DNA of 64,000 bases from NCBI GenBank assembly GCA_030824555.1, contig JAVBXK010000057.1, positions 1 through 64,000 on the forward strand. Direction: 5' to 3'. The stretch comes from a bacterium (GTDB lineage: Bacteria > Pseudomonadota > Gammaproteobacteria > Burkholderiales > Burkholderiaceae_C). Both the position numbers and the translations under genes were made by a program. The notes under the pieces are model-generated. The model saw only the letters and a list, made by a program, of their open reading frames with translations, searched no databases and was not told where the DNA came from. Shown here piece by piece: positions 29,316-38,054 of the stretch. Within the stretch, counting starts at the first letter, position 1; each line of letters opens with the position of its first letter.

Positions 29316-30347
29316 GTGAATCCGGGTACCAGCAGCCTCGTGCCGCTGCGCCGGGCGCTCCAGGAATGGCTGAGCCAACATGGGCTGCCAACACCGGGTG
29401 CCTACACCCCGCTGGCCATTGCGTACAGCGGCGGGCTCGATTCCACGGTACTGCTTCGCGTTGCCCATTCGCTTTGGCCGGGAGCGGTGGTGGCCATACA
29501 CATCAACCACGGGTTGCAAACCGCTGCGGCAGGGTTCGAGTCACACTGCACCACCACATGCGAACAATTGGGTGTTCCACTTTCGGTCATGCGCGCAAAC
29601 ATCCGCCTGCAGCCGGGTGACAGCCTGGAAGAGCAAGCCCGGGATGCTCGGTATACCCTGCTCGGGCAGGCTGCGGGCGCCCTGGGCGCGCGCGTGGTGT
29701 GGTTGGCCCAGCATGCCAACGACCAGGCTGAAACCATCGTGTTGGCCTTGTCGCGAGGAGCCGGGGTGTCCGGGTTGGCTGGCATGGGCGACATCACTGT
29801 CAACGGCGATTTGACGTTTGGCCGCCCCTTGCTTGCCCTGCCACAGGCCCGGTTGAGGGCTCTGGCCCAGGCGCAAGGCTGGGATTTTGTAGACGACCCC
29901 ACCAATCACGACACGCGACACACGCGCAACCGCATTCGCCACAACGTGATGCCTGCTTTGTCGCAGGCTTTCCCACAGATTGTGGCCACGCTGTCGCGTT
30001 CCGCTCGGCATTGCGCACAAGCCGATGACTTGCTCGTCGAATTGGCGCGGCTCGATTTGCAGGCCGTGGGCGTGCCACCTGGGCTGAGGGCCCTGCAATC
30101 ATTGACCACACCCAGGCTGAGCAACGCTTTGCGTTGCTGGTTGCGTGACACGACCGGGCGCGCACCCTCCACCGCGCAGTTGGGTGAATTGCTCAAACAG
30201 ATCGTGGTCGCCACCACGCGTGGGCACCACATTGACATCAAAGTGGGCAAGGGCAGGGTGGTGCGTGCGGGCCATCACCTGGCCTATGTACCGCCTTTGT
30301 CGCCAACAGATTCCGCTGCCAAAGAGCAGGGCCAGAATGAGGCATAA
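29316..30347 (+). CDS. tilS: tRNA(Ile)-lysidine synthase
   Basis: TilS converts C34 of the CAU anticodon of one tRNA-Ile to lysidine, an essential decoding step. The PP-loop motif IAYSGGLDSTVLLRVAH and the HINHGLQ segment mark the N-terminal adenylation domain; QHANDQAETIVL and NRIRHNVMPAL complete it. The C-terminal region is shorter than in E. coli. The start is uncertain: I give the GTG four bases after the accA stop, while an ATG at 29253 lies in frame inside accA. No clear ribosome site distinguishes them. It ends just before tRNA-Ser. Confidence 0.9.
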   Translation: MNPGTSSLVPLRRALQEWLSQHGLPTPGAYTPLAIAYSGGLDSTVLLRVAHSLWPGAVVAIHINHGLQTAAAGFESHCTTTCEQLGVPLSVMRANIRLQPGDSLEEQARDARYTLLGQAAGALGARVVWLAQHANDQAETIVLALSRGAGVSGLAGMGDITVNGDLTFGRPLLALPQARLRALAQAQGWDFVDDPTNHDTRHTRNRIRHNVMPALSQAFPQIVATLSRSARHCAQADDLLVELARLDLQAVGVPPGLRALQSLTTPRLSNALRCWLRDTTGRAPSTAQLGELLKQIVVATTRGHHIDIKVGKGRVVRAGHHLAYVPPLSPTDSAAKEQGQNEA

Positions 30348-30359
30348 TATTGGTTTCCT

Positions 30360-30452
30360 GGAGTGATGACCGAGTGGCCGAAGGTGCTCCCCTGCTAAGG
30401 GAGTATGGGGTGTAGAGCCTCATCGAGGGTTCGAATCCCTCTCACTCCGCCA
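30360..30452 (+). tRNA. tRNA-Ser(GCU), integration target
   Basis: This is a class II tRNA of 93 bases including the encoded CCA. The acceptor arms GGAGUGA and UCACUCC pair with discriminator G. The anticodon stem CUCCC/GGGAG holds loop CUGCUAA with anticodon GCU. A long variable arm (UAUGGGGUGUAGAGCCUCA) and the T-loop GGUUCGAAUCC are clear. Its last 14 bases, including CCA, are duplicated at 35014, so it is the attachment site of the integrated element. Confidence 0.97.
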
Positions 30453-30454
30453 GG
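30439..30454 (+). repeat. attL, 16-bp direct repeat at the tRNA-Ser 3' end
   Basis: The 16 bases CTCTCACTCCGCCAGG occur here, spanning the T-arm edge, acceptor strand and CCA, and again exactly at 35014-35029. The repeat length and its position inside a tRNA 3' end are as expected for attL of a tyrosine-integrase element. Confidence 0.92.
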
Positions 30455-30463
30455 AATCCTAAG

Positions 30464-30488
30464 TACCGCCTCTCAGGCGGTATTTTTT
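30464..30488 (+). terminator. rho-independent terminator just inside attL
   Basis: The stem TACCGCCT/AGGCGGTA with a CTC loop is followed directly by TTTTTTT. It lies ten bases inside the element and would terminate the tRNA-Ser transcript, replacing the native terminator that now lies beyond attR. Confidence 0.85.
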
Positions 30489-30494
30489 TGCCCG

Positions 30495-30628
30495 TTTTTG
30501 ATGGACGGCATCCAATTCTCCATAGTAGAGTTCGATGCAGACGGTTTTTAGGCGAGTCAATCCGGGTCATCCAAGCGCATGTTTTTTTGATGGATGGGAT
30601 GATGGCCGGGCCGTTTGTCCATCAAAAA
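30495..30628. repeat. left-end arm-type repeats TTTTTGATGGA (three copies)
   Basis: The core TTTTTGATGGA occurs at 30495-30505 (plus), at 30584-30594 (plus, within a longer 23-base match to the right end) and inverted at 30618-30628. All three lie between attL and the integrase start. Repeats of this kind flanking the crossover site are typical of integrase arm-binding sites. Confidence 0.7.
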
Positions 30629-30638
30629 GGGAAGGCCC

Positions 30639-31883
30639 ATGCCAAAGGTTGCCAAAGCGCTGTCGGCGCTGGAAGTCAAACGACTGAACACGCCCGGCGT
30701 TCACGCTGTTGGCACGGTGCCGGGCTTGATGCTGCGAGTTGGTGACACTGGACAACGGTACTGGTTTTTGCGCACCACGATCAAGGGAAAGCGAACCGAC
30801 ATCGGCATCGGCAGTTACCCAGAAACCAGCCTTGCGGATGCTCACGCAGAGGGTCGGAGGCTAAAGGCCAAAATCGCGGTCGGTGGCGACCCGGTTGCAG
30901 AACGGGCAGCTCCGGCGAAGGCCGCGAAGCAGACATTTCGGGCCGTAGCCGATGCGTACATTGACAGCCATCGGTCGGGGTGGAAAAACGACAAGCACGC
31001 GCAGCAGTGGGCAAACACGTTGGAGACCTACGCCCACTCGGTCATTGGAACCAAAAACGTTGGTGATGTGACCGTGGCCGATGTGTTGGCCATCCTGCAA
31101 CCGATCTGGGCAGTCAAGAACGAGACCGCCACCCGAGTTCGCCAGCGCATCGAATTGGTGCTGAGCTACGGAATGGCACTTGGCCATGCCCCGAAGGGGC
31201 TGAATCCAGCTGCATGGCGCGGCAATCTGGACAACCTGCTGCCTAAACCTTCAAAGGTCGCAAAAGTAGAGCATCACCCCGCCGTGCCGTTCCCCGATGC
31301 GCCACATTTCTTCCAGCGCCTGCAAGAAATGCCCGGCATGGGTGCCCGCTGCCTTGAGTTCGTGATGCTGACCGCATGCCGCTCAGGTGAGGCACGCTTG
31401 GCTATATGGGGTGAGTTCGATCTGACGGCTGGAATTTGGACCATCCCGGCAGTGCGCATGAAGGCGGGCCGTGAACATCGAGTGCCCCTGTCCGGACCCG
31501 TGCTGGCGCTGTTGAAGGCTTTGCCCCGGTTGGAGGATGAGCCGCTTGTTTTCCCCGGCATGAAGCCCAAGAAACCCTTGTCAGACATGACCCTGACTGC
31601 ATGCATGCGCCGCTTGAACGTCAAAGATCAAGAGGGTAGGCAGTGTGTCCCTCACGGCTTGCGTTCGACGTTTCGCGACTGGGCATCTGAAGTCACAAAC
31701 ACCCCGAACGAAATTGTTGAAATGGCGCTGGCTCACGCTATCGAGAACGCCGCCGAAGCGGCATATCGACGCGGCGACTTGCTCCGGAAACGTGAACAAC
31801 TGATGGCGGACTGGGCTGCCTTCATAGGCGATACAGCATCCGATGAAAACTTGGCGAAAAATCCATTGCTCCCAAAACAATAG
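30639..31883 (+). CDS. int: P4-type tyrosine integrase
   Basis: This site-specific recombinase catalyses integration at the tRNA-Ser end. The 414-residue protein starts at MPKVAKAL after AAAAGGGAAG; a TTG eight codons upstream is less likely. Residues 1-90 are the DUF4102 arm-DNA-binding domain (LSALEVKRL ... GSYPETSLADAHAEGRRLKA). Residues 98-195 are the core-binding SAM-like domain. The catalytic domain contains Arg248 (ACRSGEARL), Lys275, His339 and Arg342 (VPHGLRSTF), His366 and the nucleophile Tyr376 (AAYRRGD). All active-site residues are present, so it is likely functional. It reads away from the tRNA. Confidence 0.96.
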   Translation: MPKVAKALSALEVKRLNTPGVHAVGTVPGLMLRVGDTGQRYWFLRTTIKGKRTDIGIGSYPETSLADAHAEGRRLKAKIAVGGDPVAERAAPAKAAKQTFRAVADAYIDSHRSGWKNDKHAQQWANTLETYAHSVIGTKNVGDVTVADVLAILQPIWAVKNETATRVRQRIELVLSYGMALGHAPKGLNPAAWRGNLDNLLPKPSKVAKVEHHPAVPFPDAPHFFQRLQEMPGMGARCLEFVMLTACRSGEARLAIWGEFDLTAGIWTIPAVRMKAGREHRVPLSGPVLALLKALPRLEDEPLVFPGMKPKKPLSDMTLTACMRRLNVKDQEGRQCVPHGLRSTFRDWASEVTNTPNEIVEMALAHAIENAAEAAYRRGDLLRKREQLMADWAAFIGDTASDENLAKNPLLPKQ

Positions 31884-32050
31884 CATCAAAAGTTATAGCA
31901 TCAAAATAAATTTTTACCTATGAACGAATTCAATTTGAAGCCATTTTTATAGGTCAAAAAACATCGGATTTTGAAACCCCTTCCTATAGTGAAGTTGGGT
32001 GCCTCATGTCGGGGCACCGCATCTCATGATAGAGAAAGGCAGTTCACCAA
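31884..32050. promoter_or_regulatory. AT-rich leader before the AlpA-like operon
   Basis: This 167-base AT-rich gap follows the integrase. It contains an inverted ACCTAT ... ATAGGT pair and a hairpin with arms GGTGCC (31998-32003) and GGCACC (32013-32018) upstream of the small-gene operon. It probably carries that operon's promoter and control sites; exact -35/-10 boxes are not convincing. Confidence 0.4.
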
Positions 32051-32239
32051 ATGACAGACCCGAACATAGTCGTTCGCTTGCGCCAAGTTCCGCAAATCGT
32101 CGGAATCTCGATTGCCTCAATCAATCGACTCCGCCGTGCCGGGGAGTTCGTACCAGCGGTGCGACTCGGAGCCGCAGCCGTAGGTTTCCTGCGCTCCGAT
32201 CTGGACGCATGGCTTCAAGCACGCCGGGAGGCAGCATGA
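32051..32239 (+). CDS. AlpA-like helix-turn-helix regulator/excisionase
   Basis: This is a 62-residue DNA-binding protein of the AlpA/MerR-like winged-helix type, common in P4-type elements, where such proteins activate integrase or act as excisionase. The visible pattern is VVRLRQVPQIVGISIASINRLRRAGEFVPAV, split as a short strand, a helix-turn-helix and a wing, ending with FLRSDLDAWLQARRE (the canonical 'W...R' tail). A ribosome site (GAGAAAGG) precedes the ATG. Its stop overlaps the next start as ATGA, beginning a coupled operon. Whether it acts as Xis or as a regulator here is inference. Confidence 0.82.
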   Translation: MTDPNIVVRLRQVPQIVGISIASINRLRRAGEFVPAVRLGAAAVGFLRSDLDAWLQARREAA

Positions 32240-32418
32240 ACCTAAGTCCACGAAACCAATGCATCGTTGATCGTTTCGATCAGTTCGTCGCCAAACTGGA
32301 TGCCAAAGTTCAGGCCGCACTCGCAACGCTGGAAACATCGGAGCAGGAAAACGCCGCCGCTTATGCCGAACTCGACATGCTGTTGGCAACCCTCGAACCG
32401 CTTGTGGAGGCCAAATGA
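32236..32418 (+). CDS. small helical hypothetical protein (60 residues)
   Basis: This small protein starts at MNLSPRNQ, an ATG overlapping the AlpA stop. The sequence is strongly helical with heptad-like spacing (FDQFVAKLDAKVQAALATLE ... LDMLLATLEPL), so it may form a coiled coil. No family was recognised. Support for it being real comes from the ATGA overlaps at both its start and its stop (the latter with the 86-residue gene), which is the same translational-coupling arrangement seen through the operon. Confidence 0.65.
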   Translation: MNLSPRNQCIVDRFDQFVAKLDAKVQAALATLETSEQENAAAYAELDMLLATLEPLVEAK

Positions 32419-32675
32419 CCGAGATCGAAACACTCATCGCAGAGCTAGGGCCAACGTGTCCGGTAGCACTACTGAGCCACAGCAAAACGGAAGCGGCAGC
32501 CATGTTCACAAGGCCCGGCCACACCGTAAAGCATGGCGGGCTTACAGTCCATGTGTTCACTGAACGCTCCGGCTTCCGTGTGCTGGTTGCGGACAGGGCA
32601 GGAAGCGGGGTGTCGCTTGAAGTGCCTTGCCCGACCGATGCCGTCCAAATGCCTGACGGCCATGTTGTGGCCTGA
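32415..32675 (+). CDS. hypothetical protein of the element (86 residues)
   Basis: An 86-residue protein that I do not recognise. It begins MTEIETLIAEL and is mixed alpha/beta, with a probable beta-hairpin in the middle (TVKHGGLTVHVFTERSGFRV). There is no signal peptide or membrane segment. It is translationally coupled to the preceding 60-residue gene by an ATGA overlap and overlaps the next gene by up to 14 bases, so it is part of the same operon. No function is proposed. Confidence 0.65.
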   Translation: MTEIETLIAELGPTCPVALLSHSKTEAAAMFTRPGHTVKHGGLTVHVFTERSGFRVLVADRAGSGVSLEVPCPTDAVQMPDGHVVA

Positions 32676-33465
32676 AGAACTCGACATGCACGATGCCCCG
32701 GCCATCAGGTCTGGGGCAGAACTGCTGGCGGGCATCCCACCAGCCGAACGGGCACGCTTTGCCGCTAAAACGGAGACGCTGAAGCACTGCACGGCGCTCG
32801 AACTGCTGCCAGCAATGCAAGGCACCCACAGCGTTGCAACGCTGTGGGCGTTGCACCTCGAATTTCACAGGCGCGGCATCCCGCCGATCTTGCGCGGACC
32901 CCGGCATGAACTTGGCCCGCAAGGCGATTTTCTCGACCTCGCGGCAGACCTGTTGTGGCTGCAGCGCCAATGGCCCGAACACCGATGCAAAAGCCGTCTG
33001 GCGCGTGCCGTGTTCAAAGCCGAACCAGACGGCCCTATTTGGCATGGGCTGGCGCTGGCATTCAGCGCCAGCATCGGCAGCACGCGGGGCCGGGCCATTT
33101 CATTGGGCCTGCATCCACACCAACGCCACGACCTGCGCAGTCTGGCCGATGCCTCGACACGTCGCCGCTTTGACGGCCTGCACGGCGAAGGCTTCGGAGG
33201 GCTCCGGGATGCGCTGATCTCTGCACTTGTTGAAAACCCCGACAGGTCAGGCCGCACCAGCCCCGCCGACACTGCCAGCCGCCGGGCTTTTTTGTGGCGC
33301 ATCCACCAGTTGAGCGGACAGAACCACCAGCGCACCGCTCAACTGTGGGCGCTCATTTCAGGCCAGCCGATCACCCGCCAGCAAACCGCCCGGCACATCG
33401 CAGCAGTTGCACCCATTGCCGCCCAACTCGAACGGAGCCAAAAACGCGAAACATCACCACCATGA
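32662..33465 (+). CDS. hypothetical protein of the element (267 residues)
   Basis: This is the largest cargo gene, and I do not recognise the product. The sequence is rich in His and Arg and mostly helical. Notable stretches are IPPILRGPRHELGPQGDFLD, WHGLALAFSASIGSTRGRA and, near the C-terminus, LISGQPITRQQTARHIAAVA, which has the spacing of a helix-turn-helix. Two starts are possible: MLWPEELD at 32662, overlapping the previous gene, or MHDAPAIR at 32686. DNA binding, for example at the repeats that begin 20 bases after its stop, is a guess from the C-terminal pattern and the basic composition. Confidence 0.65.
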   Translation: MLWPEELDMHDAPAIRSGAELLAGIPPAERARFAAKTETLKHCTALELLPAMQGTHSVATLWALHLEFHRRGIPPILRGPRHELGPQGDFLDLAADLLWLQRQWPEHRCKSRLARAVFKAEPDGPIWHGLALAFSASIGSTRGRAISLGLHPHQRHDLRSLADASTRRRFDGLHGEGFGGLRDALISALVENPDRSGRTSPADTASRRAFLWRIHQLSGQNHQRTAQLWALISGQPITRQQTARHIAAVAPIAAQLERSQKRETSPP

Positions 33466-33484
33466 CATACGCAGGGGGTCCGCT

Positions 33485-33503
33485 CACTGAACGTAGTTCA
33501 GTG
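33485..33503. repeat. perfect hairpin CACTGAAC-GTA-GTTCAGTG
   Basis: Perfect 8-base arms with a 3-base loop, 20 bases after the 267-residue gene. There is no T-run on either side, so it is not a classical terminator. It adjoins the repeat cluster at 33507-33619. Confidence 0.7.
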
Positions 33504-33506
33504 TGT

Positions 33507-33619
33507 AAACCGCACCCCCTTCCGCCAGAGGGAATGAAGGGGGTGCGGTTTCAAGCAAATAAGGGGGCGCGGAACACTCCAAAAACAGTCCAAAGCCGCA
33601 CCTTCGCTCGCACCCCCTT
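33507..33619. repeat. iteron-like cluster of four 11-bp motifs with a 15-bp inverted repeat
   Basis: The motif CGCACCCCCTT occurs at 33511-33521 and identically at 33609-33619. Its complement AAGGGGGTGCG lies at 33537-33547, and a one-mismatch copy AAGGGGGCGCG at 33561-33571. The first two form a perfect inverted repeat with 15-base arms (33507-33521 and 33537-33551). Clustered, oriented copies in a noncoding gap look like binding sites for an element protein, such as a replication or control region. Confidence 0.7.
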
Positions 33620-33659
33620 TGCGCACGTTTTTCAACCCTTCCAAGCCCCGGAACAATTC

Positions 33660-33893
33660 ATGAAAATCACCGAACTCGATTCAACCCAATTTGCCGACAT
33701 CTACGCCGAATCTGAAGCGCTGTTGAACCACGACATGCCCGGAGGGATGTTCATCAACGTGCTGCGACACCCGGCGCTAGGAGACGTGCTGCTGTTGCAA
33801 GATGGTCAATCCGGTGCGCTTATCCAGCGGGCAGCTCCCGGCGAAAGCGTCCACGACCATGCCCGTGCTGTCGCTGCCATGAACTTTCGCTGA
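33660..33893 (+). CDS. hypothetical protein of the element (77 residues)
   Basis: A 77-residue product starting MKITELDS; I do not recognise it. It has alternating helix and strand (FADIYAESEALLNHD, then GDVLLLQDGQSGALIQR) and no membrane segment. The frame is open upstream through the repeat cluster, but that part has repeat-derived composition and no plausible start. The gene lies 194 bases after the previous one and 78 before the next, so it may have its own promoter. Confidence 0.55.
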   Translation: MKITELDSTQFADIYAESEALLNHDMPGGMFINVLRHPALGDVLLLQDGQSGALIQRAAPGESVHDHARAVAAMNFR

Positions 33894-33922
33894 GCCAGTT
33901 CAAAAAGAAGTCGCATTGTCAA

Positions 33923-33949
33923 TGTGATTCCTATAATGTGAGCATCACA
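33923..33949 (+). promoter_or_regulatory. putative promoter -10 box within an inverted repeat
   Basis: A perfect TATAAT (33932-33937) is enclosed by the inverted repeat TGTGAT (33923-33928) and ATCACA (33944-33949), upstream of the 69-residue gene with its strong ribosome site. The -35 region is not clear, which would fit a regulated promoter. Confidence 0.5.
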
Positions 33950-33971
33950 AACCAACTTTAAGGGGAATCAC

Positions 33972-34181
33972 ATGAACGATCTGACAACACGGGCACTCGC
34001 CGCTTACTTTCGCAGCGGTGGAACTGAGCAACCAAGCACGACTGATTCAGGCGTAGAGACCACCGCAGACGGAAAGCAGTATGTTGCACTGCGCAACGTG
34101 TCGGGCATCTTGGCCGTGTACCGGGTCAAGGTGGATGGTGTGCTGAAACGCCTGAAGCGATACCCATCAGATATACGATAA
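33972..34181 (+). CDS. small hypothetical protein of the element (69 residues)
   Basis: A 69-residue protein starting MNDLTTRALAAYFRSGG, preceded by a very strong ribosome site (AAGGGGA, six bases before the ATG). The second half is predicted beta-rich (KQYVALRNVSGILAVYRVKV) and ends basic (LKRLKRYPSDIR). I cannot assign a family with confidence. It is the best-supported small cargo gene because promoter-like sequence, ribosome site and a following terminator all fit, suggesting a separately and strongly expressed unit. Confidence 0.75.
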   Translation: MNDLTTRALAAYFRSGGTEQPSTTDSGVETTADGKQYVALRNVSGILAVYRVKVDGVLKRLKRYPSDIR

Positions 34182-34204
34182 AACGAAAATTTCTTATATA
34201 AGCA

Positions 34205-34238
34205 GGGGCTGGTTCCTACAATGGGCCAGCCCCTTTTT
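34205..34238 (+). terminator. rho-independent terminator after the 69-residue gene
   Basis: Stem GGGGCTGG (34205-34212) and CCAGCCCC (34226-34233), followed by TTTTT. It separates the 69-residue gene from the 122-residue gene. Confidence 0.9.
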
Positions 34239-34253
34239 CTTTAGGTCATAACC

Positions 34254-34622
34254 ATGTCAGAAAACACCATACAGCCCACAAAAAAGAAGTACACCGAATC
34301 AGAGGATCGGTACAAAGAAACCCTGTATCGGTCCGTCTATGCGATTCGCAAGGAACTCGAACCCGCCCTGAAGGAGATGATCACCGCTTCGGGTGCCCCG
34401 TCGGTGTCCGGGATGATGACGATGCTGGCCAGGGAGCCGCAACGGTGCGCTGAGGCGCTGCGTCCGATCTTTGCAGAGCTGGCAGATGCGGAGCCCAACC
34501 AGCGCCGACGACTGAAGGTCACCATGAAGTCGATCACCGATGAACTGAAGTCGGGCGAGGTGTCCGCTGAAGAGGTCGCGGCAGCCATCGCCGCCATCAA
34601 AGCAAGCAAGTCGGCGCAATAA
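34254..34622 (+). CDS. hypothetical protein of the element (122 residues)
   Basis: A 122-residue protein that I do not recognise. It has a Lys/Glu-rich N-terminus (IQPTKKKYTESEDRYKETLY) and is almost wholly helical. A Met-rich turn (GMMTMLARE) and a C-terminal helix (SAEEVAAAIAAIKASKSAQ) are the only distinctive parts. It starts 16 bases after the terminator T-run, with only a weak ribosome site (TTTAGG) upstream. It is the last gene before the right end of the element. Confidence 0.65.
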   Translation: MSENTIQPTKKKYTESEDRYKETLYRSVYAIRKELEPALKEMITASGAPSVSGMMTMLAREPQRCAEALRPIFAELADAEPNQRRRLKVTMKSITDELKSGEVSAEEVAAAIAAIKASKSAQ

Positions 34623-35013
34623 GTACGGCTTGCTGGCGCTGACCTTGTACCCCTTATCCCAAACGGCACCGATGCTGAAGGGCTTGACGAAGTTTTTTCC
34701 CGATTTTTGATCGTCACCTATAAGCAAACGGCCCCACCCCAAGCGGTTCCGATGCTTTCAAGTAAGGCACTTTCCACAAACAGCGCCAGCGCCCGGAGCG
34801 TCAAGCTATATTCCGAAAATAGTCGCTGTTTTCAATGCTTCCGGCAGACAGGGATTCACATCGACTCCGGTACACTGCCCCCAGTGGTGACGCAACCCAG
34901 CAACACCCCGGAAACAGGCAGCACTTTGTTTTTTGATGGATGGGATGATGGATGGCGGATTTTTATTGAAAAAAATCCAATGAAATCAAATGCTTGTGAT
35001 TGAGTTCTAAAGA
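34623..35013. other. noncoding right end of the element
   Basis: 391 bases with no convincing gene. The 98-codon plus-strand frame at 34707-35003 is low-complexity and lacks a ribosome site. The stretch is more AT-rich than the host DNA. It contains the right-end copy of the arm repeat (34929-34951), 62 bases before attR. Nothing else was recognised. Confidence 0.6.
34929..34951 (+). repeat. right-end arm-type repeat, 23-bp match to the left end
   Basis: These 23 bases, TTTTTT followed by GATGGATGGGATGATGG, are identical to 30583-30605 near the left end. With the three left-end copies of TTTTTGATGGA they are best explained as integrase arm-type or excisionase binding sites. Confidence 0.75.
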
Positions 35014-35029
35014 CTCTCACTCCGCCAGG
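35014..35029 (+). repeat. attR, 16-bp direct repeat
   Basis: Exact second copy of CTCTCACTCCGCCAGG. Immediately beyond it lies GTACGCATG and the terminator that originally followed tRNA-Ser, which supports this as the right junction. Confidence 0.92.
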
Positions 35030-35037
35030 TACGCATG

Positions 35038-35063
35038 AAAAGCCCCGCTAGCCGGGGCTTTTT
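35038..35063 (+). terminator. original tRNA-Ser terminator, now beyond attR
   Basis: Stem AAAGCCCCG/CGGGGCTTT with loop CTAGC, followed by a T-run. It lies nine bases after attR, where it would have closed the tRNA-Ser transcript before integration. Confidence 0.9.
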
Positions 35064-35200
35064 CGTTTCTGGACGTTCTTTGCTGTCCGCATGAGCCTGA
35101 CCCCCATTCCCATTCGGGGTATGTTCACGGTTGGTGCAAAGATGTGGGGGCGCTGCACACCCTGCCAACCGTTCATGGCCGCAACTGAAACGAATACCTC

Positions 35201-36370
35201 ATGAAACTCAAATTTCACCTGTCCATGGCCTTTGCCGCCGTGCTGCTGGCGGCTTGCGGGGGCGGCAACACCCCCCAACCCGAAACGCCCAAAACCTACA
35301 GTTATTTTGCAGAGGGCAACCCCGCCCAAGTGGTGGACGTGCCACAGCCTTCAGACCCCTCTGCCGTCATCATGGGCGGTGGCCCGGACGTTGACAGTGC
35401 GTTCAAATGGATGATTGAGCGCAGTGGGGTGCGGCCTGGCTCGGGTGGGCGGTTTGTCATCATCCGGGCCTCGGGTACCGAGGCCTACAACCCGTACATC
35501 TATTTCAGCGACGACAAGTTGTCCACGTCGGCCACCGTTGCACCTGAATGGGTGGGTGGTGCAGCGCTGGGTTTGAGTTCGGTGGAAACGCTGGTCATAC
35601 CCGACCGTGAGGCGGCCAACAGCGTGTTTGTGAACGAGGTGGTGGGCCGTGCCCAGGCCGTGTTCATTGCTGGTGGCGACCAGAGCGACTACATCCGCTA
35701 CTGGAAAAACACCGCCTTGCAAACCACCCTCGATGGGCTGATGCAGCGCAACGTGCCCATTGGCGGCACCAGCGCCGGGCTGGCCGTGCTGGGGCAGTTT
35801 GACTTTTCAGCCATGGTGGACGGTGTGCTGACGTCAGAAGCCTTTGCCGACCCGTATAACGAGTTCATGACATTTGACCCCGATCCGTTGAGCCTGACCG
35901 GCGGGTTCCTGACCCCGCCTGCATTCAAGAACGCTATTCTGGACAGCCACCTGAACACGCGCGACCGCATGGGCCGCATGCTCACGTTCGTGTCGCGCCT
36001 GGTGGAGCAGGTGGGTACCACGGGTTGCCCAGGCGGCATCCTGTCGGCGGGCACGTCTGCGTTGAACGGCGCGCGGGCCATCGGTGTGGGCGTGGAAACC
36101 GCGCTGCTGGTGCAGGGCAATGGGCAACACACGCCGTTTGTGGGGCGGCGGGTGACCAACCCCTACACCACCGAAACCGACAACGCCGTGTACTTTGTGC
36201 GCCCTTTGCAGGCCGCAACGGTGTGCAGCCCGGGCAAACCCTTCACGGCACACCAGTTTGAGATTCGCAAGCTCAACGACGACGGTGCGTTCAACCTGTC
36301 TGACTGGAGCGGCAAACCTGCCTACACGGTGGACGTGACCGCAGGCGTGTTGTCTGCCAACCCGTACTGA
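35201..36370 (+). CDS. cyanophycinase-like (peptidase S51) lipoprotein
   Basis: This 389-residue exported lipoprotein has a lipobox ending LLAAC (Cys19). The mature protein is of the S51/cyanophycinase family: AVIMGGGPDVDSAFKWMIERSG, then VFIAGGDQSDYIRYW, and the nucleophile elbow PIGGTSAGLAVLG with Ser191. Cytoplasmic cyanophycinase degrades cyanophycin; secreted relatives exist and some act on imported polymer. No cyanophycin synthetase lies nearby, so its substrate is unknown and a general exopeptidase role is equally possible. It is monocistronic and lies directly beside the integrated element but outside attR. Confidence 0.85.
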   Translation: MKLKFHLSMAFAAVLLAACGGGNTPQPETPKTYSYFAEGNPAQVVDVPQPSDPSAVIMGGGPDVDSAFKWMIERSGVRPGSGGRFVIIRASGTEAYNPYIYFSDDKLSTSATVAPEWVGGAALGLSSVETLVIPDREAANSVFVNEVVGRAQAVFIAGGDQSDYIRYWKNTALQTTLDGLMQRNVPIGGTSAGLAVLGQFDFSAMVDGVLTSEAFADPYNEFMTFDPDPLSLTGGFLTPPAFKNAILDSHLNTRDRMGRMLTFVSRLVEQVGTTGCPGGILSAGTSALNGARAIGVGVETALLVQGNGQHTPFVGRRVTNPYTTETDNAVYFVRPLQAATVCSPGKPFTAHQFEIRKLNDDGAFNLSDWSGKPAYTVDVTAGVLSANPY

Positions 36371-36485: not shown

Positions 36486-38054
36486 TCATGAAGCGGTTTT
36501 TGGGGAGAAGCCTGTGACACCGCCCGCGTACCAACCGCTGCGCACCGCACCTTCCAGCGTGGCAGGGTAGGGGCCCGCGATGTGGTCACCAGCTGCGACC
36601 AGGTTGGGGGCAATGTGGGCGTGCGGGCGGTGCAGATCCGGTGTGCATGCAAAGGTCGCGCGCTTCTCCACGATGGTTTTCAGGGGCGAAACGGTCAGGC
36701 CCAGCTGCGCCTTGGCCTGTGCGCAAACCTGGGTTTGCAAGGTGTGTGCATCGGCCTGGCTGGCGCTGACCACGAACGCCAGCAGGCCATTGGGGCCGCC
36801 GAGCCAACTGCGGTCAAACACAAACTGCGCGGGCTGGTTTGGGCTGTGGTGCAGTGCGGTCATGGGTTGGGGTAGTATGTAGCCCGATGCGGAGCCGCCA
36901 GGTTGTTCACACCACGCATACACGGTGGCAATGGCCTCGAACGTCAGGCTGTCGGATGCGGCCACCCAGCTTTCCGGCGTGGCTGATTCAATGTGGGCGT
37001 CGGTTGGCTGGTTGGCTTGCTGCCCTGTCATGTTTTCTGAATACATAGCATAAACGCTATGTAATAAAAGCGACGAGGCCTGTTTTGATGATGAATTTGC
37101 CAGCACCACCCTGTCAAATTGCTCGCCATTGACGAGCCAGCCCCAAGCCCCTGGCAAGGGCGCATTCGCCTGATCGGGTGCCGGGCGGTGAGGGCCGCTG
37201 CTTGGTGTGTGGGCGGCGGGCGGCATGCAGGGTTGCAGGCCGGTCACGCGTGTGCCCAGCCGAAGGTCAGCGCAGCGTTCGGGCGCTGCCAGCCAGTTGA
37301 CGGCGGCGTGGGGGAACAGGTCGCCCAGGTTCACCCTGGGCAGCAGCAAATCTGCACCGCCGGGCACGCCAAACAAAGCGTCTTTCAGCACCCGCAAAAA
37401 AACCTGACCGCTGGCCCGGTCGGCGGGTGTGTTCAGGGCCGACACGCACAGCGGGTCGATGAAACCCGCCACCAGCGTGGCGGGCAGCTGGGCACACAGT
37501 TGCGCCACGGTGGCGTTGGCGTCGCACCTGAAACCACTGAGTTGCCAGCGCGTGGCCGTGGCCAGCAGCGCCAGCTTGTCGCACCACGGCCAGCCACGGG
37601 CCTGGCACACACCGGCTACCACCGGCAGCGCCAACTTGTGCGACAGCCATTTGGCCAGACGGGCAACCGAGGCCACGCCAAAGGACTGCGTACCTGTGGT
37701 TGCAGTTGTGGTTGTCGGCATGGCCCAACCGGGCAACCGCAGGCCCGAACCGTCGGGGTAAACCAGGGCCAGCGGCACGCGCAGCAAAGCCGCATCCACA
37801 TCGACACCCACGGTGTGCATCAGGCGCAGCGTGTCGGTGTAAGCGCCGATGAGGATGTGCTGGCCGTTGTCCAGCGCCACGGTGCGGCCATCGGGCAGCG
37901 TGACGGGCACACTGCGGGCGCGGCCGCCCCAGTGCCGACTGGCTTCAAACACGGTCACGTGGTGGCCTTCACTGGCTGCGCGAACCGCCGCACTCAAACC
38001 AGCCCAGCCACCGCCCACCACGGCCACGCGCTTGGGCGGCGGCACAACCATCAC
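36486..38054 (-). CDS. hpnE: hydroxysqualene dehydroxylase
   Basis: HpnE is a FAD-dependent amine-oxidase-like enzyme that reduces hydroxysqualene to squalene, the third step of the HpnCDE route. The 522-residue protein has the dinucleotide fold VAVVGGGWAGLSAAVRAASEG with FEASRHWGGRARS, and a C-terminal FAD motif VAAGDHIAGPYPATLEGAVRSG. It is longer than the usual ~420-450 residues. Part of the excess is a low-complexity stretch near residues 320-350 (SSSKQASSLLLHSVYAMYSE) that coincides with a dispersed DNA repeat. Its start overlaps the hpnD stop as ATGA. Confidence 0.93.
   Translation of the reverse strand: MMVVPPPKRVAVVGGGWAGLSAAVRAASEGHHVTVFEASRHWGGRARSVPVTLPDGRTVALDNGQHILIGAYTDTLRLMHTVGVDVDAALLRVPLALVYPDGSGLRLPGWAMPTTTTATTGTQSFGVASVARLAKWLSHKLALPVVAGVCQARGWPWCDKLALLATATRWQLSGFRCDANATVAQLCAQLPATLVAGFIDPLCVSALNTPADRASGQVFLRVLKDALFGVPGGADLLLPRVNLGDLFPHAAVNWLAAPERCADLRLGTRVTGLQPCMPPAAHTPSSGPHRPAPDQANAPLPGAWGWLVNGEQFDRVVLANSSSKQASSLLLHSVYAMYSENMTGQQANQPTDAHIESATPESWVAASDSLTFEAIATVYAWCEQPGGSASGYILPQPMTALHHSPNQPAQFVFDRSWLGGPNGLLAFVVSASQADAHTLQTQVCAQAKAQLGLTVSPLKTIVEKRATFACTPDLHRPHAHIAPNLVAAGDHIAGPYPATLEGAVRSGWYAGGVTGFSPKTAS
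37035..37082. repeat. dispersed repeat copy inside hpnE
   Basis: It contains the perfect inverted repeat ACATAGC (37043-37049)/GCTATGT (37056-37062) and ends in GAGGCCTG, as do intergenic stretches at 56722-56778 and 61336-61378. It is translated in frame as part of HpnE. Confidence 0.55.

Follow-up and report, generated by a model that had tools for sequence, protein, structure and literature searches.

Satellites of the P4 type carry a primase-helicase together with capsid or derepression genes. In phage-inducible chromosomal islands (PICIs) the origin lies, according to excerpts of the published account, immediately 3′ of rep, where two sets of iterons flank an AT-rich region (PMC6092414), and in the phage-inducible chromosomal minimalist islands (PICMIs) of the Vibrionaceae the order, as given in the portion of the report drawn on here, is int, iolg, alpA, up1 and prim, iolg sharing 4 nt with int and defence genes lying from prim to fis; there AlpA is both necessary and sufficient for activation, and the PICMI model makes a primase mandatory (PMC10803314). 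The subject of this analysis is a 4,575-bp element in the 3′ end of a tRNA-Ser(GCU) gene of a bacterium of the Burkholderiales (Burkholderiaceae_C; GenBank assembly GCA_030824555.1, contig JAVBXK010000057.1, forward strand, positions 1 to 64,000, a 64-kb stretch referred to below as the window). It encodes an integrase, an AlpA-family regulator and six further small proteins, g3 to g8, and it is best read, at about even chances, as a minimal satellite-like element that has no primase and relies instead on a new initiator–origin pair, namely g5 and the repeats directly behind its gene. The features on which this reading turns are:

30360–30452, plus strand: tRNA-Ser(GCU) gene, the integration site (ARAGORN; Rfam tRNA)
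30439–30454, plus strand: att core copy in the 3′ end of the tRNA gene, exact repeat CTCTCACTCCGCCAGG
30639–31883, plus strand: P4-type tyrosine integrase (int), 414 aa (PF13356, PF22022 and PF00589 above cut-offs; phrog_1)
32051–32239, plus strand: AlpA-family regulator and excisionase candidate (alpA), 62 aa (PF05930, E 5.4e-10, above cut-off)
32686–33465, plus strand: g5, 259 aa, proposed replication initiator (all-helical model, C-terminal part like a helix-turn-helix, HTH)
33473–33619, both strands: iteron-like array, exact copies of AAGGGGGTGC at 33512 (minus), 33537 (plus) and 33610 (minus)
34642–34700, plus strand: proposed origin core, ACCTTGTACCCC-N37-AGTTTTTTCC, conserved in relatives
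35014–35029, plus strand: distal att core copy, exact repeat CTCTCACTCCGCCAGG

It is virtually certain that the stretch between the two repeats is a real insertion. The 16-bp direct repeat CTCTCACTCCGCCAGG, which is made up of the final 14 nt of the tRNA gene followed by GG, is exact in both of the places where the preliminary description had put it, the starts lying 4,575 bp apart, and at up to one mismatch these are its only two copies in the whole genome (two forward matches and none of the reversed control in 5.16 Mb on 139 contigs). The integrase is complete, as had been stated, with arm-binding, central and catalytic domains all above the Pfam cut-offs, and the AlpA assignment holds likewise; together with the unique repeat and with congener tRNA sites that show no visible element, these intact genes give good support to the earlier proposal of a self-integrating element. 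The GC content of the element, 56.7%, falls inside the spread of the window (59.8%, standard deviation 2.6), so that composition gives no support for an insertion, and in an Rfam scan of 30300–35200 nothing but the tRNA reached the gathering score.

The tRNA was used as a query against seven genomes of the genus and was found in six of them, the element's own genome included, the one without a match being G665 (53% complete). In the other five (G117, G666, G280, G667 and G668) a terminator-like hairpin, read by eye, follows directly 3′ of the tRNA, and inspection by eye of the 0.2–1.5 kb behind the tRNA revealed no element in any of them, this stretch having been translated in G668 alone. In G668, where accA- and tilS-like sequence was recognised by eye upstream of the tRNA, the next gene after the tRNA encodes an hpnE-like desaturase with 52% identity over 515 columns to window positions 36486–38054. 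The same hpnE is present in the window past the distal repeat, from which a single Peptidase_S51-like gene (35201–36370, 389 aa) separates it, and since hpnE stands directly behind the tRNA in one genome and past the distal repeat in the other, the DNA enclosed by the repeats is best interpreted as inserted. The anatomy of the site and the element-free congeners show both the integration and the restoration of the tRNA; the preliminary description had named the lack of any genome with an empty tRNA-Ser site as a result that would speak against it, and the opposite was found, given the five congeners whose tRNA has no visible element behind it. The Peptidase_S51-like gene is itself missing at this place in G668, and its matches in congeners are just 30–34% identical. 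Separately, G667 contains a 29-nt fragment of a tRNA-Ser 3′ end at a place where no tRNA was called (L034, 1501–1529; G667:C34:10854–10882), which could be the distal att copy of a different island.

Judged by its distribution, g5 is the backbone of a scattered family of elements and not cargo. Ten distinct g5 loci were counted, the window and those designated L012, L013, L015, L019 to L023 and L052, and all of them lie near a tRNA or tmRNA gene. A scan of genome contigs with the single protein confirmed none of 115 stretches, while a profile built from the three-row alignment A2 led to five confirmed relatives among 37 stretches; these are Malikia granosa P1 (L019), Roseateles subflavus APW6 (L020), a Rhodoferax and a Comamonadaceae metagenome-assembled genome (L021 and L022) and Ramlibacter paludis XY19 (L023), all five of which adjoin a tRNA-Ser gene, with three anticodons among them. 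Eight of 299 genomes of the family were matched by g5 and six were kept, the matches in G289 and G296 being spurious (internal stop, antisense to a long host-like ORF); of two matches at two contig ends in G170, L015 was counted and L014, with an internal stop, was not, and L019 and L020, which correspond to G244 and G235, were each counted once. Among 399 genomes of the order there were four matches, of which, besides the own genome, G1011 (L052) was the one examined, those in G693 (E 7.8e-5) and G1018 (E 5.4e-4, three stops) staying outside the count. Beyond the own genome none was found among 369 genomes of the class, and in viral contigs 68 stretches matched the pattern and none was confirmed.

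The six g5 loci with an intact integrase like that of the window (about 410 aa, relationship judged by eye) are all at tRNA-Ser genes. The others have different settings: L012 is near a tRNA-Arg gene and has a DUF6538 integrase, L013 is near a tRNA-Pro gene at a contig edge, L015 is near a tmRNA gene with another type of integrase (by eye), and L052 is near a tRNA-Met gene with a P4-type-looking integrase split into two ORFs. In an alignment of eight g5 proteins the seven relatives are 21–38% identical to that of the window, and g6 is common to the window and L019 to L022 (29–40% identity). In Malikia the encoded start MGFILAERE is found at the tRNA 3′ end and again 4.1 kb away, which is the second att copy. 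The polarity of L019 to L023 is the opposite of that in the window: there the cargo end is the one next to the tRNA and int is at the far end, and here the att core of the tRNA is at the int end.

Directly behind g5 stands the iteron-like array, in which the three exact copies of AAGGGGGTGC are joined by a one-mismatch copy at 33561 (plus) and a degenerate one at 33473 (plus). The exact copies are the only exact occurrences of AAGGGGKTGC in the 64 kb, and four copies with at most one mismatch within 160 bp were obtained in none of 300 Markov resamples. The same motif is present directly behind g5 in L012 and in L019 to L023; over the window and these six loci (about 156 kb), 29 of the 47 matches of AAGGGGKTGC with no more than one mismatch fall within about 1.9 kb behind g5. 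The two divergent g5 genes are followed by repeats of their own, namely AAGGGTATGC in L015 (at 679, 704 and, inverted, 728) and GGGGGTGAC in L013 (at 1066, 1094 and 1143). At least two exact repeat copies occur in seven of the ten loci (window, L012, L013, L015, L021, L022 and L023; the exact copies of L021 are one of each form of K), and a spacing of 23–26 bp is seen at least once in eight (window, L012, L015 and L019 to L023). The protein and the DNA array thus change together, which suggests a cognate pair, and as far as sequence comparison can tell g5 and its array very probably are one. DnaA boxes at one mismatch number 64 in the 64 kb and five in 30300–35100, with those at 33502 and 34770 in or near the array and core; this density is that of the window and no role of DnaA is claimed.

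A second non-coding feature is the core, which is common to six of the ten elements (window, L012, L019, L021, L022 and L023) and has the layout ACCTT(G/C)..CC, 30–44 bp and a T-tract, behind which CTATAAG or CTTATAG often stands. Its pattern has one match in the window (34642–34698), where 0.01 would be expected, and matches six distinct elements among 53 loci; a stricter form had four matches in 399 family genomes (window, G244, G252 and G1115) and none in the reversed control, three of the four being known g5 elements. From this layout g5, the array and the core would probably form a replication module, and this is held with somewhat better than even confidence. The same evidence bears on another reading, in which g5 is a regulator that acts on operators in the array, by auto-repression or by silencing the downstream genes, with no replication start, and in which the element is carried passively, along with the chromosome or through generalized transduction. 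The array does lie between g5 and the downstream genes, the sole structural hint about g5 is a weak HTH-like resemblance, and g5 is missing from plasmid and phage collections; against these stand the several repeats at a spacing of about 25 bp with a T-tract core, which is the layout of an iteron origin, the PICI origin at the same place behind rep (PMC6092414, in the excerpt), and the core itself, kept in six elements although the nearby genes differ. The regulator reading is on balance doubtful.

In yet another reading the element would be an integrative mobilizable element (IME) served by a conjugative helper, with the repeat region or the core as oriT and g5 as an accessory transfer protein. 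An oriT without a relaxase is possible in IMEs, according to part of a published account (PMC11389934), and inverted repeats are present in the array. Repeats spaced by about 25 bp and lying in either orientation nevertheless fit iterons better than a nic site, no relaxase family was matched in the element, and PF03432, the one relaxase family searched for there, is missing from the own genome (the control was positive in just one of 14 genomes), all of which makes mobilization of this kind improbable.

The model of g5, made from six sequences, is all helical (pLDDT 88, pTM 0.82). SPTRTAELW..LSGE.LTRQAVSKQI, with which the alignment ends, has the look of a helix-turn-helix. In VIA-align residues 160–258 resemble sigma region 4, and the rows for residues 154–259 include globin-type and phycocyanin chains at the same level (Z of about 5); the modelled likeness of the C-terminal part to sigma region 4 is weak. 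Foldseek gave no g5 match at E < 0.2, which leaves room for an unlisted fold, and no known initiator family was matched either. For g6 the model is mixed alpha/beta (pLDDT 82) and no fold match was significant (best PDB E 0.67; VIA-align Z up to 5.4).

The remaining features of the element are the other small genes and a set of 14-bp repeats:

30495–30508, plus strand: arm-type-like repeat, one mismatch to TTTTTGATGGATGG (putative role)
30584–30597, plus strand: arm-type-like repeat TTTTTGATGGATGG, exact, 14 bp (putative role)
32236–32418, plus strand: g3, 60 aa, no family, 4-nt overlap with alpA
32415–32675, plus strand: g4, 86 aa, no family, 4-nt overlap with g3
33660–33893, plus strand: g6, 77 aa, common to four relatives, mixed alpha/beta model
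33972–34181, plus strand: g7, 69 aa, ORF without a family, cargo slot
34254–34622, plus strand: g8, 122 aa, no family, cargo slot; among 299 family genomes in its own only
34930–34943, plus strand: arm-type-like repeat TTTTTGATGGATGG, exact, 14 bp (putative role)

The TTTTTGATGGATGG repeats are placed like the arm sites of an integrase, and in the circular form the att core would have such repeats to its left and right; neither they nor the iteron-like array (33473–33619) had been noticed in the preliminary description. The six ORFs after alpA, g3 to g8, are all on one strand, the start codons of int, g3, g5 and g6 having been chosen by the analyst inside longer ORFs. Their earlier characterisation as six small genes in tight order applies from alpA to g5 only, since 194 bp lie between g5 and g6, 78 bp between g6 and g7 and 72 bp between g7 and g8, the first of these gaps being notable in its own right. 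In the family libraries (Pfam, PHROGs, PADLOC and NCBIfam) g3 to g8 had weak matches, none of which was accepted, the best PADLOC values being 0.014 for g8 and 0.021 for g7; a DUF892 assignment of g8 (E 0.007) was rejected because it fails the family cut-off. These six proteins thus have no convincing match to known transfer, packaging or defence genes in the libraries, as had been said from the sequence, and none of the eight element proteins matched a primase family. That the cargo is open, as had also been said, still applies to g4, g7, g8 and perhaps g3; it no longer applies to g5, a backbone gene with cognate-looking repeats, or to g6, which four relatives have in common.

A decayed island, in which integrase and AlpA remain, the genes for interaction with a helper have been lost and mobility has ceased, might be expected to look as small as this one (just 4.6 kb, with no packaging or transfer gene recognised), and one damaged relative, L052, exists. 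In the window, on the other hand, the ORFs of int, alpA and g3 to g8 are open, both att cores, the arm-like repeats and the conserved core are present, and the relatives have the same small gene set, so that decay is very unlikely.

Layout and comparison with PICIs and PICMIs make it plausible that the element is, in the cautious words of the preliminary description, perhaps a satellite. Gram-negative PICIs of the EcCICFT073 type, as far as the excerpt goes, likewise have int on the left, alpA, rightward genes, a Rep-like gene with an iteron region immediately behind it, to which g5 and its iteron-like array would correspond, and accessory genes, whereas in the element no pri-rep, interference or packaging gene was recognised and two sets of iterons are not clearly seen (PMC6092414). 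PICMIs, on the same partial basis, are similarly tiny, have int, alpA, a small gene, a replication gene and accessory or defence genes in succession towards att, are bounded by direct repeats and have no recognised capsid genes, and the gene that overlaps int by 4 nt in L019 and L020 recalls iolg; the element differs in that no primase was recognised, g5 and the iteron-like array taking the place of prim, and in its tRNA-Ser site instead of fis, its size of 4.6 kb versus 6.1 kb, its host order and the lack of a known helper (PMC10803314). As it departs from the PICMI model in primase and site, it is called satellite-like here, not a PICI or a PICMI. With P4-like satellites it shares the integrase domain family, the tRNA 3′ end and an AlpA-like protein, but none of the P4 primase-helicase or capsid and derepression genes was recognised in its 4.6 kb. 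The Pseudomonas tmRNA islands moved by jumbo phages, in the part of the report consulted, also combine direct repeats, a tyrosine integrase (intY), AlpA and defence cargo and have no transfer genes, but they are larger, have other core genes (RadC, YqaJ) and use another site (PMC12595487). In titles and abstract beginnings of open-licence PMC papers, with the subscription literature mostly outside, no tRNA-Ser element with an iteron origin and no primase was found described; being limited to open-licence papers, this is weak evidence of novelty.

The mechanism envisaged is as follows. The P4-type integrase inserts the 4,575-bp element into the 3′ end of tRNA-Ser(GCU), and the tRNA is restored. 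Excision would be triggered by AlpA, and replication of the resulting circle would begin once g5, a protein of a new all-helical, HTH-like family, attaches to the iteron-like array that follows its gene, with the core and its T-tract (34642–34700) as a candidate site of melting or initiation. For its exit from the cell the element would depend on a helper, and packaging by a phage, as with PICI and PICMI satellites, is the most likely route because no transfer or capsid gene was recognised in it; that it is a phage satellite in the strict sense is given slightly less than an even chance. The slot next to the distal att holds exchangeable cargo, g7 and g8 here and defence or antitoxin-like genes in relatives. 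The strengths attached to the insertion, the cognate pair, the replication module and the strict-sense satellite are judgements and were not computed.

Several results weigh against this reading. In the family-library scans no primase, helicase, terminase, capsid or relaxase was recognised in the element, g5 has neither a match in plasmid or phage collections nor a significant fold match (best E 0.26 in PDB and 0.25 in BFVD), and the own genome has no PF04860 portal and one weak terminase-like match, so that no resident helper is evident. The known helpers of PICMIs are virulent phages, and the missing resident helper is for this reason not decisive. As to the array, the count of 29 among 47 motif matches is post hoc because the motif was read off the same regions, and over the whole sequence there is no clear excess of matches in the window (14 observed, 13.5 expected), L020 (4 and 2.8) or L023 (4 and 2.3), where the clustering alone is raised. 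L019 has three one-mismatch copies, L020 has one exact and three one-mismatch copies in an array that the general repeat search did not pick up, the array of L052 is weak, and the spacings in L013 are 22–28 bp. The core was not found in four of the ten loci (L013, L015, L020 and L052), and in the window g6 to g8 sit between the iterons and the core. G1115, finally, was outside the genomes of the g5 searches and hence a blind test of the link between g5 and the core, and it did not confirm a strict link: the 362-aa ORF before its core aligned with g5 at an hhalign E of 0.24, an unrelated control reaching 0.056, and it has no iteron array, so that a core can occur without a recognisable g5. The core of G1115 adjoins a serine recombinase (PF00239) and a gene like the R subunit of type I restriction systems, in the region 2338–8268 of L058.

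If the primase-free satellite-like reading is correct, a primase, which the PICMI model demands (PMC10803314, in the portion consulted), is dispensable for satellite-type elements, and such elements would be missed by that model precisely because it requires one; the profile of g5, the iterons and the pattern of the core would be a handle for finding them. The g5 module would be a compact new replicon, and the element, a carrier of small cargo genes, would rank among the smallest that resemble phage satellites, its cargo slot marking genes of the g7–g8 type as defence candidates. A bolder proposal, offered tentatively and thought less likely to hold than to fail, is that g5 and its array are a new class of initiator and origin, all-helical, HTH-ended and free of primase and helicase, which powers an undescribed family of small Burkholderiales satellites, mainly at tRNA-Ser, with Shedu, SIR2-STAND, antitoxin-like and unassigned cargo at one exchange point; g7 and g8 would then be candidate new defence genes and the element would be among the smallest satellites known.

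In the relatives the cargo slot lies between g5 and the tRNA end; in the window it holds g7 and g8 after g6. Its content differs among the relatives. In Roseateles subflavus (L020, 8845–11726, next to tRNA-Ser(GGA)) it encodes a KAP NTPase (PADLOC PDC-S20, E 3.5e-76) and SduA of Shedu (E 6e-165), in L022 a CopG/BrnA-like antitoxin and a DUF4145 protein, in L023 a BrnA-like, a DUF4411 and a Peptidase_M78 protein, and in L021 a 113-aa protein without a family, which gave no alignment with g8 at E up to 100; no gene could be called in the slot of L019. L052 (2298–9732), from another family, has an 817-aa SIR2_2/nSTAND protein behind g5 and is damaged, with a split int, inserted IS-like genes and a g5 matched in two stretches. 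In L012 (6134–13089, tRNA-Arg(CCG)) a Mrr_cat protein and, by eye, a serine recombinase lie on the other side of g5, and by its gene content this locus is a combination of the g5–array–core module with another integration system, that of the DUF6538 integrase. Words resembling ACCTATAAR were seen by eye in the gap between int and alpA (31884–32050) and again just behind the core (34715–34725), and these are possible AlpA sites.

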